Positions 8,852 to 57,606 of a stretch of 64,000 nt of DNA are shown one piece after another. Source of the stretch: an uncultured Caulobacterales bacterium (GTDB lineage Bacteria > Pseudomonadota > Alphaproteobacteria > Caulobacterales > Maricaulaceae); contig CANNER010000001.1 in NCBI GenBank assembly GCA_947503715.1, forward strand, positions 620,001 through 684,000, written 5' to 3'. The notes under the pieces are model-generated. The model ran no database searches and was not told the origin of the DNA. It saw nothing but the letters and a program-made list of their open reading frames with translations. A program made the position numbers and the translations under genes. Numbering within the stretch: the stretch's first letter is position 1; the number at the start of each line of letters is the position of its first letter.

Positions 8852-8856
8852 TCTTC

Positions 8857-8957
8857 GTCATCCCGCACGCAGGCGAAGCCGGAGATGCGGGACCTATCGT
8901 CTGCTTTCTCAAACCTGCGTTCACAAACGATAGGCCCCGGCTCAAGGCCGGGGTGAC
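8857..8957. repeat. Palindromic repeat family B, copy B1 (intergenic)
   Basis: A 101-bp element bounded by GTCATCCCG and CGGGGTGAC (inverted ends, one mismatch). It carries the family core ATGCGGGACCTATCG and, on the other arm, CGATAGGCCCCGG, so it can fold on itself. Related copies lie at 9932-10045 and 55663-55779. It contains no plausible gene. Confidence 0.82.
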
Positions 8958-9001
8958 AAATGTATGTCACGCAAGAGCTGTCATGCGTTTCTTACATGGC
9001 T

Positions 9002-9415: not shown

Positions 9416-9931
9416 ATGATCTCGCGGCAGGGGGACAGGTGCGACCGCCCATCATGGGAACGGCATCTCGGCATTGTCCGTTAAAAAGGCAGGACTGTCC
9501 GCGTGGTGGCCCTCCGCGATGGAGTACCAAAGTAGAAAAATGTTTTACGCAGGGGCCATATGCGTGAAAGATGATAGTTGAAGGTCGGCGATACCGTTAC
9601 CCTCACATCTCTCTGTCAGTACGTTTTACACCCGCACCAACCGCGCATAATGGTATCCACGCGGCAACGGTTTTTGAGAGAGCGGCCGGTCGAATAAACC
9701 CCGGAGTCCACCCACTTGGAATGGCCGGTCGGCTCTCACTCTCAAAGCTCCGGCACAGGTTTGGGACTTCATCCAAACTGCTCAACCCCGCTGTCCCTCA
9801 GACCAATCAGTAAGCGCTAATCTGTCCTGTGTCTGAAAGAACGGGAGGAATATGGCATGGGGTAGGGAAGGTGGGGATACGATTGTTTATAATGGGGGAT
9901 TGCGCGTGGCGGGTAGCGTATTTCTCCAACT
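9416..9931. other. Gene-poor stretch, possible structured RNA
   Basis: No open frame here has convincing coding character. Around 9674-9742 the arms GAGAGAGC and GCTCTC can pair, enclosing a repeated GGCCGGTCG, so a long imperfect hairpin is possible. I looked for tmRNA, RNase P RNA, SRP RNA and 6S RNA signatures by eye and found none I would call. The part next to 9415 must also hold the promoter of the 9002-9415 gene. Confidence 0.3.
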
Positions 9932-10045
9932 GTCATCCCGCACGTAACGCAGTGGAGATGCGGGACCTATCGGCTGCCAACCCAAGCTAAAGCTCTGAAA
10001 ACGTTAGGTCCCGCATCAGCGGGCTTTGCCCTTGTGCGGGATGAC
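9932..10045. repeat. Palindromic repeat family B, copy B2 (upstream of crtB)
   Basis: A 114-bp element with perfect 12-bp inverted ends (GTCATCCCGCAC / GTGCGGGATGAC). It holds the shared core GGAGATGCGGGACCTATCG near the left end and a complementary TTAGGTCCCGCAT on the right, so the whole unit can form one long branched hairpin. It is intergenic, 117 bases before the crtB start. Confidence 0.88.
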
Positions 10046-10162
10046 ATCGGATGTAAGCATTGCTACAGTCTGACGATGCGAAAGCGCGGATTAAAATCGT
10101 CTTTCCCGAGGATTAAGTTTTCAAACCTTCCCTCGCGCCGCGTTTCACCCTAACCCCGCCTC

Positions 10163-11086: not shown

Positions 11087-11097
11087 TATTTTCTCTC

Positions 11098-11178
11098 CGT
11101 CATTACCGTCCTTTTGGCGGTAATCCACACCCAAGTTGCGCCATCGCATGGATTACCGGGACAAGCCCGGTAATGACG
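11098..11178. repeat. Palindromic repeat family A, copy A1 (left of GIY-YIG gene)
   Basis: An 81-bp element with perfect 11-bp inverted ends (CGTCATTACCG / CGGTAATGACG). Each half is itself a hairpin (ATTACCG...CGGTAAT and ATTACCGGG-acaag-CCCGGTAAT), separated by a variable middle between GGTAATCC and GGATTACC. It begins 12 bases after the crtB stop and ends 19 bases before the nuclease start. Copy A2 has the same orientation and length. Confidence 0.9.
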
Positions 11179-11197
11179 AAGAAGGGGAGAATGGGAA

Positions 11198-11512: not shown

Positions 11513-11593
11513 CGTCATTGCCGCCCTTGTGGCGGTAATCCATGCGATGTCGATAGTGTGGAGTGGATTACCGGGACAAGCCCGGTAATGACG
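11513..11593. repeat. Palindromic repeat family A, copy A2 (right of GIY-YIG gene)
   Basis: An 81-bp element, CGTCATTGCCG at the left and CGGTAATGACG at the right (one mismatch between ends). The right 29 bases are identical to copy A1; the left arm is ATTGCCGCCCTTGTGGCGGTAATCC. It lies 12 bases after the nuclease stop, in direct orientation relative to A1. Confidence 0.9.
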
Positions 11594-15249: not shown

Positions 15250-15330
15250 CGCCATTACCGGGCTAGTCCCGGTAATCCATACTGAATTTTCGATATCGTA
15301 TGGATTACCGCCACAAGGGCGGTAATGACG
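15250..15330. repeat. Palindromic repeat family A, copy A3 (thiG-secG gap)
   Basis: An 81-bp copy running from CGCCATTACCG to CGGTAATGACG. Its arms are swapped relative to A1 and A2 (ACCGGGCTAGTCCCGGT on the left, ACCGCCACAAGGGCGGT on the right), so it is inserted in the opposite orientation. It starts 20 bases after the thiG stop. Confidence 0.88.
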
Positions 15331-43075: not shown

Positions 43076-43142
43076 GTCGGCGGTGCGGGGGAAAAGGTCA
43101 AGGGAGGCGGAGTGCGCCGCTATGCCATAATATACTATTTAT

Positions 43143-43224
43143 CGTCATTACCGGGCTTGTCCCGGTAATCCATGAGATGCTCGAAAGTTCAGTGTGGATT
43201 ACCGGGACAAGGGCGGTAATGACG
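43143..43224. repeat. Palindromic repeat family A, copy A4 (topA-rnr gap)
   Basis: An 82-bp copy bounded by CGTCATTACCG and CGGTAATGACG (perfect inverted ends). Left arm ACCGGGCTTGTCCCGGT, right arm ACCGGGACAAGGGCGGT; the right arm looks like a hybrid of the two arm types. It lies between the topA stop and the rnr start. Confidence 0.88.
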
Positions 43225-43242
43225 GAAAATGGAAATCAATTA

Positions 43243-50072: not shown

Positions 50073-50146
50073 TGGAGGTACCACCCGGAATCGAACCGGG
50101 GTACACGGATTTGCAATCCGGTGCGTAACCACTCCGCCATGGTACC
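50073..50146 (-). tRNA. tRNA-Cys (GCA)
   Basis: A 74-nt tRNA on the minus strand with encoded CCA. The acceptor stem GGTACCA/TGGTACC pairs fully, the anticodon loop is TTGCAAA (anticodon GCA), the T-loop is GGTTCGATTCC, and the discriminator base is U, a cysteine identity element. It stands alone, not in a tRNA cluster. Confidence 0.96.
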
Positions 50147-52908: not shown

Positions 52909-54333
52909 ATGTCTGAACAGACGCCAAGTTCACCGGATAATCTTCAGGATAACGGCGTGTCTTCGGGTGAGCCGAGCATGGAAGATATTCTGGCCTCTAT
53001 TCGGAAAATTATATCTGAGGACGAACCCGTTGCCATGGAGTCGCCGGAAGATGTATTTGTGGACCTGAAATCCGATGCGGAAATTGAGACCGTGGAGGTG
53101 GATTTTGAAGATCTGAATACAGTCGATGATCCGCTTGCCGTGGCCGAGACTGTTGACGCAGAACAAACGCTTGTTGATTTAGATGTAGAAGCGGTTCTCT
53201 CAGATATGAATCTTGCCGACGCGTCAGAGGATGTGAAACCTGACGAAAACATCCTCGATATGCTTGGTATGGAAATTCCGCTGGAAGCCGATGCACCGGA
53301 GGCGGAGATCGAAACTTACACAGCCCGGTCCGAAGACTTAGCGCCACCTATGTCAGATAAGTCTGATACGGATGAGATGGATGCCTTACTCGACGGTATC
53401 CTCCTCGCGCCGGATGAAGATCTGGGCGATGTTGAAGAGACAGCGCCACAGGCCGCAACTGTTGACAATGATCCAGATCTTGAATTGGTCAAAACGCTGA
53501 TGGCGGATCTATCCGATGATCAAGGGCTCGGTCTCGAGACAGATGATGACCTCGATTCGCTTCTCGCTATTCCGGAAATCGAAGCTGAAGCTGTGCAAGA
53601 GCTTGTAGAGTCAGATGAACCTGAGGTCGCAGAGGAAATTGAAGAAGATATTCTCAGCGATATTCTGAATATGACGCTGGATGACGAGATAAAGTCCCAT
53701 CCCGAAGATCTGGACATTGCCACTGATCTCGTGACGCCCGACACTGTTGCGGCGGATGAATTGGCTAATCTTGAAGCCAATGATATTGCTGAGCAGATTG
53801 AAACAGCCGAGACGGCGGACGAGCTTCCATCTCTTGCTGATATTGCCGCGGCGGCCCAAGCCGATGCGGTTGAAGCTGAAACAGCTGCCGTATCTGCGCC
53901 TAACCCCTTGGCTGCGACCGCTGGTCTGGCGGCCGCAGGGGCAGGTCTTGCAGCTTTGGGTGCAACGGCGTTGGGCAATGAGCCCGTTTCCGAAAATGCC
54001 GCTGACCCTCAAGATATTACGCCAACCCTTTCGACTCAAACTGAAACACCAGAACCCGTGCCGCCCTCAAAGGAGCCTTCCATGCCCGTTCAAGCCGTAA
54101 ATACTGATACTATCCTCGACGACGTAACTGAATCCGCCGCCGCTGGCGCTTTCGCGGAACTCAATTCCGTCGTCGAAGAAAAGGCCGTCTTTAACGAGCG
54201 CGGCCCGCGCATCGGCGACCTCGTACAGGAAGCCCTTCGCCCTATGCTCAAAGATTGGCTCGACGCTAATCTGAAAGGCATTGTCGAGCGCGCGGTGGCC
54301 AAAGAGGTCAAACGCATCTCGTCGGGGAAGTAG
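52909..54333 (+). CDS. popZ: PopZ-type polar organising protein (DUF2497)
   Basis: A 474-residue protein with the two conserved ends of PopZ. The N-terminal helix is EPSMEDILASIRKIISEDE at 21-39, and the C-terminal segment (RGPRIGDLVQEALRPMLKDW through VAKEVKRI, about 429-471) drives oligomerisation. Between lies a very long acidic, low-complexity region. PopZ forms a polar matrix that anchors the chromosome origin. Caulobacter PopZ is about 177 residues, so the linker is greatly extended. Confidence 0.88.
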   Translation: MSEQTPSSPDNLQDNGVSSGEPSMEDILASIRKIISEDEPVAMESPEDVFVDLKSDAEIETVEVDFEDLNTVDDPLAVAETVDAEQTLVDLDVEAVLSDMNLADASEDVKPDENILDMLGMEIPLEADAPEAEIETYTARSEDLAPPMSDKSDTDEMDALLDGILLAPDEDLGDVEETAPQAATVDNDPDLELVKTLMADLSDDQGLGLETDDDLDSLLAIPEIEAEAVQELVESDEPEVAEEIEEDILSDILNMTLDDEIKSHPEDLDIATDLVTPDTVAADELANLEANDIAEQIETAETADELPSLADIAAAAQADAVEAETAAVSAPNPLAATAGLAAAGAGLAALGATALGNEPVSENAADPQDITPTLSTQTETPEPVPPSKEPSMPVQAVNTDTILDDVTESAAAGAFAELNSVVEEKAVFNERGPRIGDLVQEALRPMLKDWLDANLKGIVERAVAKEVKRISSGK

Positions 54334-54432: not shown

Positions 54433-57400
54433 ATGCTCGACAAGAACTTCGATCCTCAATCGGCGGAACAACGTCTCTATGAGATGTGGGAGAGCAACGG
54501 CTATTTCAAACCGCGTGCCGCCAAGCCGGGTGACACAAAAGATGATAATTACTCCATCGTGATTCCGCCGCCCAATGTGACGGGCAGCCTGCATATGGGT
54601 CATGCGCTCAACAACACGATCATGGATATCCTGATCCGCTATAACCGGATGAAGGGGAAGGCGACGCTCTGGCAGCCGGGCATGGACCATGCCGGAATCG
54701 CGACGCAGATGGTGGTCGAGCGCAAATTGGCCGCTGAAGGGAATCGCGCCCGCAAGGATATGAGCCGTGAGGAGTTTCTGAACCATGTCTGGTCGTGGAA
54801 AGAGGAATCCGGTGGCATGATCGAGAAACAACTCCGCCGTCTTGGCTCCTCCTGTGACTGGTCGCGCTCCAAATTTACGCTGGGCGAGCGCGAAGGCGGG
54901 CAGATGGCCGATGCCGTGACCAAGGCCTTTGTCGAGATGTATGAGGCGGGCCTCATCTATCGCGACAAGCGCCTCGTGAACTGGGACCCGCATTTCCAGA
55001 CCGCGATTTCCGATCTGGAAGTCGAGAATATCGAGAAGGACGGCCATTTCTGGCACTTCAAATATCCGCTCGCAGGCGGGGAAACCTATACCTATGTCGA
55101 GAAGGACGAGGACGGCAATGTCACTCTGTCAGAAGAGCGGGACTATATTTCCATCGCCACGACTCGTCCAGAAACCATGCTGGGTGACGGCGCGGTGGCG
55201 GTTCATCCCGATGATGAACGCTATGCTCCGATTGTCGGGAAAATGGTGCGTCTGCCACTCGCCGACCGGCTTATCCCGATCATCACGGATGAATATCCGG
55301 ATATGGATTTCGGCAGTGGCGCGGTGAAGATCACGGGCGCGCATGACTTCAACGATTATGAAGTCGCGAAACGGAATGACATTCCGATGTACTCCCTGAT
55401 GGGCCCACGCGGCGAGATGATTGAGAGCGAAATCATGCCCGCAAAATATGTCGGCATGGACCGGTTCAAGGCGCGGAAAGAGGTTGTTGCGGATATCGAC
55501 GCCGAAGGGCTGCTCATTCGCGTCGAAGACAAAAAGATTATGCAGCCCTATGGGGACCGCTCCGGCGTGGTGATTGAACCGATGTTGACGGATCAGTGGT
55601 TTGTGGATGCAGAAAAGCTCGCCGGTGAGGCGATGGGGGCGATATCTCGTTCTTCTCCAAATGTCATCCCGCACAAGGGCGATAGCCCGCAGATGCGGGA
55701 CCTATCGAAACGCGAAAACGCCGGCGATGGAGAGCAGACGTCAGGCCCCGCATCTCCACTGCGTTCCGTGCGGGGTGACAGCGGAGATGTAACCAAAACC
55801 CGCTTCATCCCCGAAAACTGGACAAAAACCTATGACCACTGGATGGAGAATATCCAACCGTGGTGCATCTCGCGGCAATTGTGGTGGGGCCATCAAATTC
55901 CGGCTTGGACTGTTTCAGGTTGGTCAAAAGGAAACCTTTCGTCTGAAACAGTAGAAAGTAAACTAGCGCAGCGTGAAGTGTCGGAACGAGTTTGGAAGCT
56001 CACACTGGCTGGTGAAAGCATAACTGATGCAAAAGAGCGAGGTTTTCACAATCGTTTCCTCGACAACGAATTTTGGGAATTTTCAGAATATTATGAAGTT
56101 GATGATAATTCCTCGGGCGAATTTGATATAAATGCGATTTTCAAAATTAAGGGCAAGATAGCTCAATACTTTAGAGATGCAGAAATCAGAGTTCGTTTTC
56201 GCAGAGACCCCGACGTCCTTGACACCTGGTTCTCCTCCGGTCTCTGGCCATTCTCCACGCTCGGTTGGCCGGACAACACGGAGGAACTCTCCCGTTTCTA
56301 CCCGACCTCCACCCTCGTCACGGCGTTCGACATCATCTTCTTCTGGGTGGCGCGAATGATGATGCAGGGCTTGCATTTCATGGATGAGGTGCCGTTTGAG
56401 GATGTCTATATCCATGCGCTGGTTTTGGACGAGAACGGCAAGAAAATGTCGAAATCCATCGGCAATACGCTCGACCCACTCGACCTTATCGACGGCGTGT
56501 CGATTGACGAACTCGTCGAGAAACGCACACGCGGATTAAAAAACCCCGAGAAAGCCCCGCAAGTCGCCAAGGCGACGAAGAAAGCCTATCCCGACGGGTT
56601 CGAAGCCTTTGGCGCGGACGCGCTGCGCTTCTCCCTCGCGAGTCAGGCCGGGCAGGGGCGCAATATTCGTCTGTCCGTGGACCGCATTGCGGGCTACCGG
56701 AATTTCGGAACAAAGCTCTGGTCTGCCGCGAATTTCGGTCAGATGAATGGCTGTGTTCCAACGGATTTCACGCCAGAAAGTGCGACTCTGAACCTCAATA
56801 AATGGATTATTTCCGAGACGGCGAAAACGGCGGCGGAGATTTCCCGTTGCATCGACTCCTATCGTTTCAACGACGCGGCGGATGCTGCCTATAAATTCAC
56901 ATGGGACACATTCTGTAGCTGGTATCTGGAGCTGTCCAAACCGCTGCTCTCCGGCGAAGACGGGGCTGAGAAAGACGAGACAAAAGCGACCTTTGCCTGG
57001 GTGCTCGACCAAATCCTGAAACTCCTCCACCCGTTCATGCCGTTCATCACAGAAGAGTTGTGGGGCAAGATTGGAGGCACGCGCGAAACACATTTGATCG
57101 TGGCCGATTGGCCGACCTATGGCGAAGACCTCGTAGATGCCGATGCGGTTACTGAACTCACATGGCTGCAAACGCTCATCACAAACATCCGCTCGGTCCG
57201 CGCCGATATGAACATCCCGCCGAGCAAGAAAGCACCGCTCCTCATGTGCGCCAAAACGCTTGACCCACGGCTCGCAACCTACGCCCCGCAACTGTCGCCC
57301 ATGGCGCGGGTGGAGCGTGTCGAACTCGCCGACACAGCACCTGAAGCGTCGCTGCAAACCGTCGTGGACGGCGTGCAATTCGCCATCCCGCTGGCGGGCC

Positions 57401-57606
57401 TGATCGATATGGAGGCCGAACGCAAACGCCTCTCCAAGGAGATCGAGAAAGCCCAAAGCGAGATCGAGAAAATCGACCGCAAGCTCGGCAATGAAGCCTT
57501 TGTCGCGAAAGCGCCGGAAAAGGTTGTGAACCTGCAAAAGGAACGCCGCGCGGGTTACGTCGCCGAGGTTGAAACCTTGCAGGCCGCACTGGACGGATTG
57601 GCATAA
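54433..57606 (+). CDS. valS: Valyl-tRNA synthetase with two insertions
   Basis: A 1057-residue class Ia synthetase that charges tRNA-Val. HMGH (residues 54-57) in [12 protein letters not shown] and KMSKS near 671 mark the active site, and [17 protein letters not shown] marks the editing domain. A C-terminal coiled coil ends the protein. It is longer than the usual 870-950 residues because of two insertions: residues 411-449 are exactly one family B palindrome (55663-55779), and residues 493-591 (99 residues) replace a loop of about 30 in E. coli ValRS and are AT-rich. All catalytic motifs remain. I start at 54433; a TTG at 54415 is in frame. Confidence 0.95.
55663..55779. repeat. Palindromic repeat family B, copy B3 (in frame within valS)
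   Basis: A 117-bp element with near-perfect inverted ends (GTCATCCCGCAC / GTGCGGGGTGAC). The shared core CAGATGCGGGACCTATCG and the opposite arm TCAGGCCCCGCATCTCC are present, as in copies B1 and B2. It occupies 39 codons exactly, in phase 0 with valS, translating as V-I-P-H-K-G...V-R-G-D with no stop. Confidence 0.85.

Follow-up and report, generated by a model that had tools for sequence, protein, structure and literature searches.

A palindromic repeat dimer lying in frame in valyl-tRNA synthetase of a Maricaulaceae bacterium, and recurrent inserts in the same loop of its relatives

Selfish palindromes carried in frame within genes are best known from Rickettsia. How does such a repeat come to lie inside the gene for valyl-tRNA synthetase (ValRS) in another alphaproteobacterial lineage, is it part of the enzyme, and has the same place in the protein been used more than once? 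The window, as the whole stretch of DNA that was analysed is called here, comprises 64,000 nucleotides from a 3.15-Mb, 99.97% complete genome (G000) of an uncultured Maricaulaceae bacterium, presumably marine and free-living. The gene and the parts of the repeat are as follows.

54433..57606, plus strand: valS, valine--tRNA ligase, 1057 aa, single copy, no internal stop
55662..55780, no strand assigned: REP dimer in valS, 119 bp including its end bases; 55663-55779 make up 39 codons
55662..55674, plus strand: outer left arm, TGTCATCCCGCAC, with TGTC tag
55691..55703, plus strand: inner left arm, AGATGCGGGACCT
55743..55755, plus strand: inner right arm, AGGCCCCGCATCT
55768..55780, plus strand: outer right arm, GTGCGGGGTGACA

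The valS product exceeds the cut-offs of two NCBIfam families (NF004349, 1197 bits; TIGR00422, 1008 bits). An earlier note, made from the DNA letters, had allowed for a second valS elsewhere. None was found in the 3.15-Mb genome, in which the four other matches of ValRS are only 26-31% identical over parts of their length. Because ValRS is essential, we infer that this valS must be functional. Codon 411 starts at base 55663, so that 55663-55779 is exactly 39 codons in phase (residues 411-449), free of stops. In an alignment with Thermus thermophilus ValRS (1gax), the insertion point lies between its residues 376 and 380, and the editing-domain fragments 1wka/1wk9 match residues 237-366 of the window ValRS, ending about 45 residues before it. 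The earlier note had described 55663-55779 as a dispersed palindromic repeat of 39 open codons in the link from the editing to the catalytic domain; the phase and the genome matches agree with the first part of that description and the structure alignments with the second. It had also proposed alignment with close relatives, and the repeat is indeed absent from the sister species (G013, joined to G000 with support 1.000), which has a short loop, AKVNDGSTKFVPENW. The window loop is longer than that of the sister species by 47 codons and not 39, i.e., by the repeat plus about eight more.

Two other features of the neighborhood were noted. A second valS loop (window 55900-56205), AT-rich and about 90 residues long, follows WWGHQIPAW; in close relatives this place holds segments of differing sequence, about 25 to 105 residues by eye, and it looks like a swapped module. 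Directly upstream of valS is a long frame (window 52909-54333), acidic and repetitive by eye, which we take to recall PopZ.

The symmetric repeat exceeds the 39-codon segment by one base at each end. By its layout the segment is a REP dimer: a pair of short palindromes, one inverted relative to the other, whose tags face outward. As single-stranded DNA, 55660-55790 folds with -31.1 kcal/mol (DNA parameters), and 3 of 200 dinucleotide shuffles are as stable. All nine full copies that were aligned have TGTC as their left outer end and finish with GACA on the right; thus the tags are outside in every aligned dimer of the family, many other matches being single arms. The inner end is CCT in all nine (by eye). 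The stem, ATCCCGCA/TGCGGGAC, begins with a mismatched pair, and by eye encloses about 16 nt in most copies and 20 in valS.

An AlphaFold2 model of the window ValRS was computed from 32 aligned sequences, only one of which (L133) carries another insert, and has a mean pLDDT of 82.6. Its best match among solved structures is 1gax_A (TM-score 0.82 by target length, 0.67 by query length). The repeat falls in one weak region of the model:

55651..55788, plus strand: predicted disordered loop, residues 407-452, pLDDT below 50, all coil; helix 393-404 before it and strand 457-459 after it

A second, variable loop of valS, at about residues 481-600, is likewise modelled poorly (pLDDT 49-68). Most likely the repeat encodes a floppy loop on the ValRS fold, low pLDDT being a prediction and not proof of disorder, the more so with a single other insert among the aligned sequences.

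The 117 bp of the valS repeat have at least 40 DNA matches in the genome, itself included (E <= 1e-3; 40 of 55 candidates scored, the 40th being a repeat hit to the L002 copy from the opposite strand). Eight other full-length copies (111-114 bp, 72-77% identity) were aligned with the valS copy, giving nine of 111-117 bp in which outer and inner arms are conserved end to end; one further copy, 70% identical over 1-116, was left out of this alignment. The remaining matches are mostly single arms (77-93% identity). Two relatives of the repeat lie elsewhere in the window:

9931..10046, no strand assigned: full-length copy of the valS repeat family, 75% identical, intergenic as far as examined
8856..8958, no strand assigned: mixed dimer with a left arm of the valS repeat family (8857-8899 matched) and a right arm of another REP sequence, GGCCCCGGCTCAAGGCCGGGGTGAC

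Both places, given as 8857 and 9932, had been assigned earlier to the same family as the valS element. Both do match; at 8857, however, only the left arm belongs to the family.

Within the genus, 5 of 18 genomes (G000 included) have a match, the four others with one or two single arms each, and the sister species has none. Given so few matches in the 17 other genomes and none in the sister, we conclude that the family expanded in the G000 lineage. No direct repeat of 2-11 bp immediately flanks any of the nine full copies; thus there is no insertion scar or target-site duplication. Also lacking from G000 is any match to the Y1 transposase model PF01797, for which 5 of 14 control genomes were positive, Caulobacter vibrioides among them. 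RAYT-driven movement was rejected on this ground.

Only one of the 40 matches lies inside a recognizable gene, and this is the valS copy (surrounding frames of at least 100 residues examined). Six other frames around matches gave no Pfam match, and the remaining short frames were judged by eye. In-frame copies in other genes of this genome, which the earlier note had thought worth looking for, were thus not found in recognizable genes besides valS among the 40 scored matches.

Searches for other identities of the element were negative: there was no match in PLSDB for plasmid relatives, and at gathering thresholds Rfam recognizes nothing in the window but a tRNA (50076-50146). Another REP dimer of classic form, resembling CGTCATTACCGG...CCGGTAATCCA, inversely paired and tagged at its outer ends, is present in four window copies (11094-11182, 11513-11593, 15250-15330 and 43137-43230). 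The CGTC tag itself occurs in a repeat family of the window other than that of valS.

A 141-residue piece of ValRS without the insert, used as query against 137 family genomes, found a match in 122. A large insert at the same ValRS place was identified in 18 of these 122 (G000, G001, G002, G010, G017, G018, G022, G062, G072, G126, G127, G130, G132, G133, G137, G138, G139 and G143). Thus, the valS repeat is not an isolated case: 17 other genomes hold large inserts, mostly other palindromes, in the same loop. The possibility raised in the earlier note, that the same residues stand there throughout the family, is correct as to the position and wrong as to the residues, which differ, and only a minority of the family is concerned. 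By eye, the inserts fall into the following types.

G000: TGTCATCCCGCAC type
Nine genomes: CTCATCCC / CTCATTCCC, the CTCAT type
G010, related in G018: CGTCATCCTCGG / CGAGGGTGACG
G002 and G072: CCTCTCC-rich palindromes
G127: CTCGTCCTTCGAG
G001: CCCTCGGG / CGTCATCCTCGG palindromes

Clear palindromes were found in 16 of the 18, at most 4 of 200 mononucleotide shuffles being as stable; the inserts of G022 and G139 lack a palindrome, 48 and 82 of 200 shuffles reaching their stability. In 17 cases a single open frame takes in both flanks, and in the other, G062, the contig ends just downstream of the site. The coding frame is neither stopped nor shifted in any of the 18 inserts, and the other five frames together contain stops in all 16 inserts counted.

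Strong hairpins could in principle be cleaved from RNA or bypassed by the ribosome, leaving the segment out of the protein. Such a segment need keep neither phase nor a stop-free frame, and the fact that all 18 inserts keep both, with stops in the other frames, counts against this reading, which we regard as very improbable. The repeats are also of a kind prone to misassembly. That separate genomes have unlike inserts at one site, each of them in frame, argues against an assembly error, and the matches of the repeat go far beyond chance similarity; the probability of either is negligible in our judgement.

Twenty-five of the 122 matching family genomes (hand count; e.g., G021, G026, G029, G030 and G031) have a best ValRS match of only 25-30% identity. 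This suggests a divergent or replaced valS in these organisms, which would place them outside the insert question.

Beyond the family, 239 of 240 genomes of the class have a ValRS match. Among the 150 matches listed (one per genome, hand count), 149 continue across the site, adding no more than about 12 codons, and that of G000 alone stops there. In 79 loci of a named collection (80 less L096), spacing is as usual in 76; L138 has 14 extra residues, L066 has 5, and L133 has a REP-like insert whose loop sequence is the same as in G130:C52.

Whole-genome searches for copies covered the elements of three genomes, G000, G017 and G010; many of the relatives are incomplete genomes. In its own genome the G017 element is matched at no fewer than 31 other places, some of them paired arms of a single copy; G000 has no match. 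The same query also matched G130, where the valS insert is among the matches, G132 and G137. For the G010 element there is one match besides itself in G010, whose genome is 75% complete; G002 has nine, G018 has ten (the ValRS insert among them) and G000 has five, while G001 and G062 gave no match.

The history of the loop was followed on a FastTree phylogeny of 59 ValRS sequences, 18 of them filled, with the insertion site left out of the alignment. At least 10 changes between the filled and the short state are required on the tree, or 14 gains if loss is forbidden. No shuffle of the labels among 500 gave as few as 10 changes (mean 15.5), so that filled loops group together on the tree and their state is partly inherited. 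In 16 of the 18 filled loops (G000 and G127 being the exceptions) the insert is preceded by xGH, where most short loops have xxG without the H. Four members of genus g19 and G027 retain a short leftover without a palindrome (AVERGHAGDDSSAKGATKF, AMNAGHSGEDGDKGETRF).

The shared flank may go back to a single early insertion that was afterwards overwritten or lost. An insertion in the ancestor of the group would have opened the loop, REPs that came later would have taken its place through gene conversion or nested insertion, and the species with short loops would have lost it by deletion or recombination. The flank, the leftovers and the clustering on the tree are all as such a history would leave them. 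The sequences at the site are nonetheless of several kinds, and the 5' REP arm is read in three frames: as A-H-P/S (or T-H-S) in the CTCAT type, as V-I-P in G000 and as S-S in G010, G018 and G001. Substitution alone leaves the frame unchanged; therefore at least three separate events, or replacements that changed the frame, are required. The CTCAT type has one reading frame in all nine genomes and is also compatible with common descent. Against a single origin are also the missing GH in G000 and G127 and the nearly private repeat family of G000. We consider one ancestral insertion possible and somewhat doubtful; since it still requires repeated replacement, it alters the history of the loop more than the nature of the element. 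In our reading, the loop may have lengthened early in some lineages and then have been colonized repeatedly.

Other synthetases carry comparable inserts. Five near-full-length matches of the G017 element in its own genome are in frame (40 of 55 candidates scored): one each in valS, leuS and the pyruvate dehydrogenase E2 gene, and two in glyS. The leuS, glyS and E2 genes were named by NCBIfam models above cut-off. Outside G017, in-frame dimers were identified in leuS of G130 and in glyS and leuS of G010. The loci with in-frame REP dimers are:

G017: L251, L260 and L253
G130: L195
G010: L324 and L355

G017 also has paired arms with other spacing (e.g., C1:309745/309811), and single arms in frames of 120-393 residues.

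The LeuRS copy of G017 lies in a loop after PAHDQRD, presumably within the editing domain. Palindromic inserts occupy the same place in G010 and G130, and one of half length in G004 (15 LeuRS aligned; G012 left out). In the GlyRS beta subunit, the loop that precedes A(I/V)xxHYKP is occupied by palindromic inserts in G017 and G010 (19 aligned; five loci left out) and by other palindromes in G037 (L322) and G039 (L320), which belong to two other families of the order. Among the five unaligned GlyRS beta loci, that of G046 has a gap at the insert place. By eye, there is no REP-like insert in 12 IleRS and 7 MetRS aligned, those of G000 included, nor in the LeuRS and GlyRS beta of G000. In five IleRS, 11-19 residues form a variable segment without REP-like appearance.

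A 29-aa REP peptide searched against 136 genomes matched in frames of more than 250 residues only in G017 and G130. A subset of the copies outside valS was checked in G132, G137, G018 and G002, and these are not in frames of more than 170 residues. The apparent bias of the inserts towards synthetases rests on few genomes.

Synthetases do dominate the in-frame copies in named genes, as the list for G017 shows. This could be taken to mean that synthetase loops are preferred targets and not merely tolerant ones: a single loop in each of ValRS, LeuRS and GlyRS beta would attract or retain one repeat after another because an mRNA hairpin or an enzyme loop is useful there. Such a structure might pause the ribosome, stabilize the message or let the synthetase bind its own mRNA and so control its own level, and synthetase genes would be selected targets. 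Most relatives lack an insert, however, and the inserts are alike in neither sequence nor length; IleRS and MetRS have none in the proteins aligned; and tolerance alone would give the same bias in large enzymes with exposed loops. Both the preference for these loops and the retention for function therefore appear improbable to us.

We think it likely that mobile REP dimers land widely, and that the loops of ValRS, LeuRS and GlyRS beta are tolerant sites that keep in-frame, stop-free copies, which are later replaced. The REP dimer would be a selfish palindromic repeat that multiplied in the G000 lineage, one copy of which landed in the valS link between editing domain and catalytic core, in a loop that perhaps already exceeded the usual length. 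With a size divisible by three and one frame without stops, this copy would be translated as a flexible 39-residue loop while the enzyme keeps working. Copies that shift the frame or fall in sensitive places would be lethal, and none are seen. In the ValRS loop, and in the single loops of LeuRS and GlyRS beta, different REP dimers would settle, decay and be replaced across related species.

What these genomes add to the Rickettsia case is presence and absence between sister species of other Alphaproteobacteria, different repeats in one loop, and three affected synthetases. They make it testable how a protein takes in a selfish DNA segment, and whether the new loop ever becomes useful; for ValRS and LeuRS, simple complementation and charging assays exist.

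Among known elements, MITEs are short non-autonomous repeats with inverted ends. The valS repeat is likewise short with inverted ends, and differs in that all nine full copies are without target-site duplication. It shares with the REPIN/RAYT system the inverted pair of short palindromes as a unit. A GTAG tag and a Y1 transposase are typical of that system (in part also PMC3733652), and neither was found here. Rickettsia palindromic elements (RPE) are palindromes of 100-150 bp that lie in frame in genes, as the repeat does in valS. The genome and the sequence are different, and only 1 of 40 matches here is in a recognizable gene; the sequences were compared by the ATGAC end motif, which a paper on R. 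japonica describes as frequent in RPE-4, leaving insertion hotspots possible (PMC3767692).

Closest in form are the CGTC-tagged REPs. These occur mainly in Alphaproteobacteria, have the tag CGTC, or else CCTC, with TGTC as a common variant, and mostly form HH dimers with the tags outside, also with unlike partners and without a known transposase; their stem of 8-9 bp starts with a paired A-T, their loop is 4-5 nt, and their short tail is mostly CCA (PMC3733652). The valS repeat has the GTCAT...ATGAC ends, the TGTC tag and the dimer with tags outside. Unlike them, its arms enclose about 16 nt and not 4-5, its first stem pair is mismatched, and its tail is CCT and not CCA. Because the tag and the dimer form agree and the short loop and the CCA tail do not, we call the repeat CGTC-like and do not file it as a member. 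RPE-6 and RPE-4 of R. conorii have been equated with CGTC-1 and CGTC-4 in that same text (Di Nocera et al. 2013, PMC3733652). The earlier note had likened the repeat to the Rickettsia elements while placing it in a "different lineage and sequence"; this is half right, since the GTCAT...ATGAC ends are shared with the CGTC-tagged group, which by that account holds RPE-4 and RPE-6 (PMC3733652).

The kind of event is known: for free-living bacteria, REPs in frame within genes were reported in 2013, with tRNA synthetases of X. oryzae, E. litoralis and S. alaskensis as examples, and the same study describes different REPs at about one recB site in two xanthomonads (PMC3733652). Among the matches listed from the open-access literature, there is no report of this ValRS loop or of synthetases as hotspots for REPs. 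That different repeats have time and again occupied a single loop of ValRS, of LeuRS and of GlyRS beta appears to be new.
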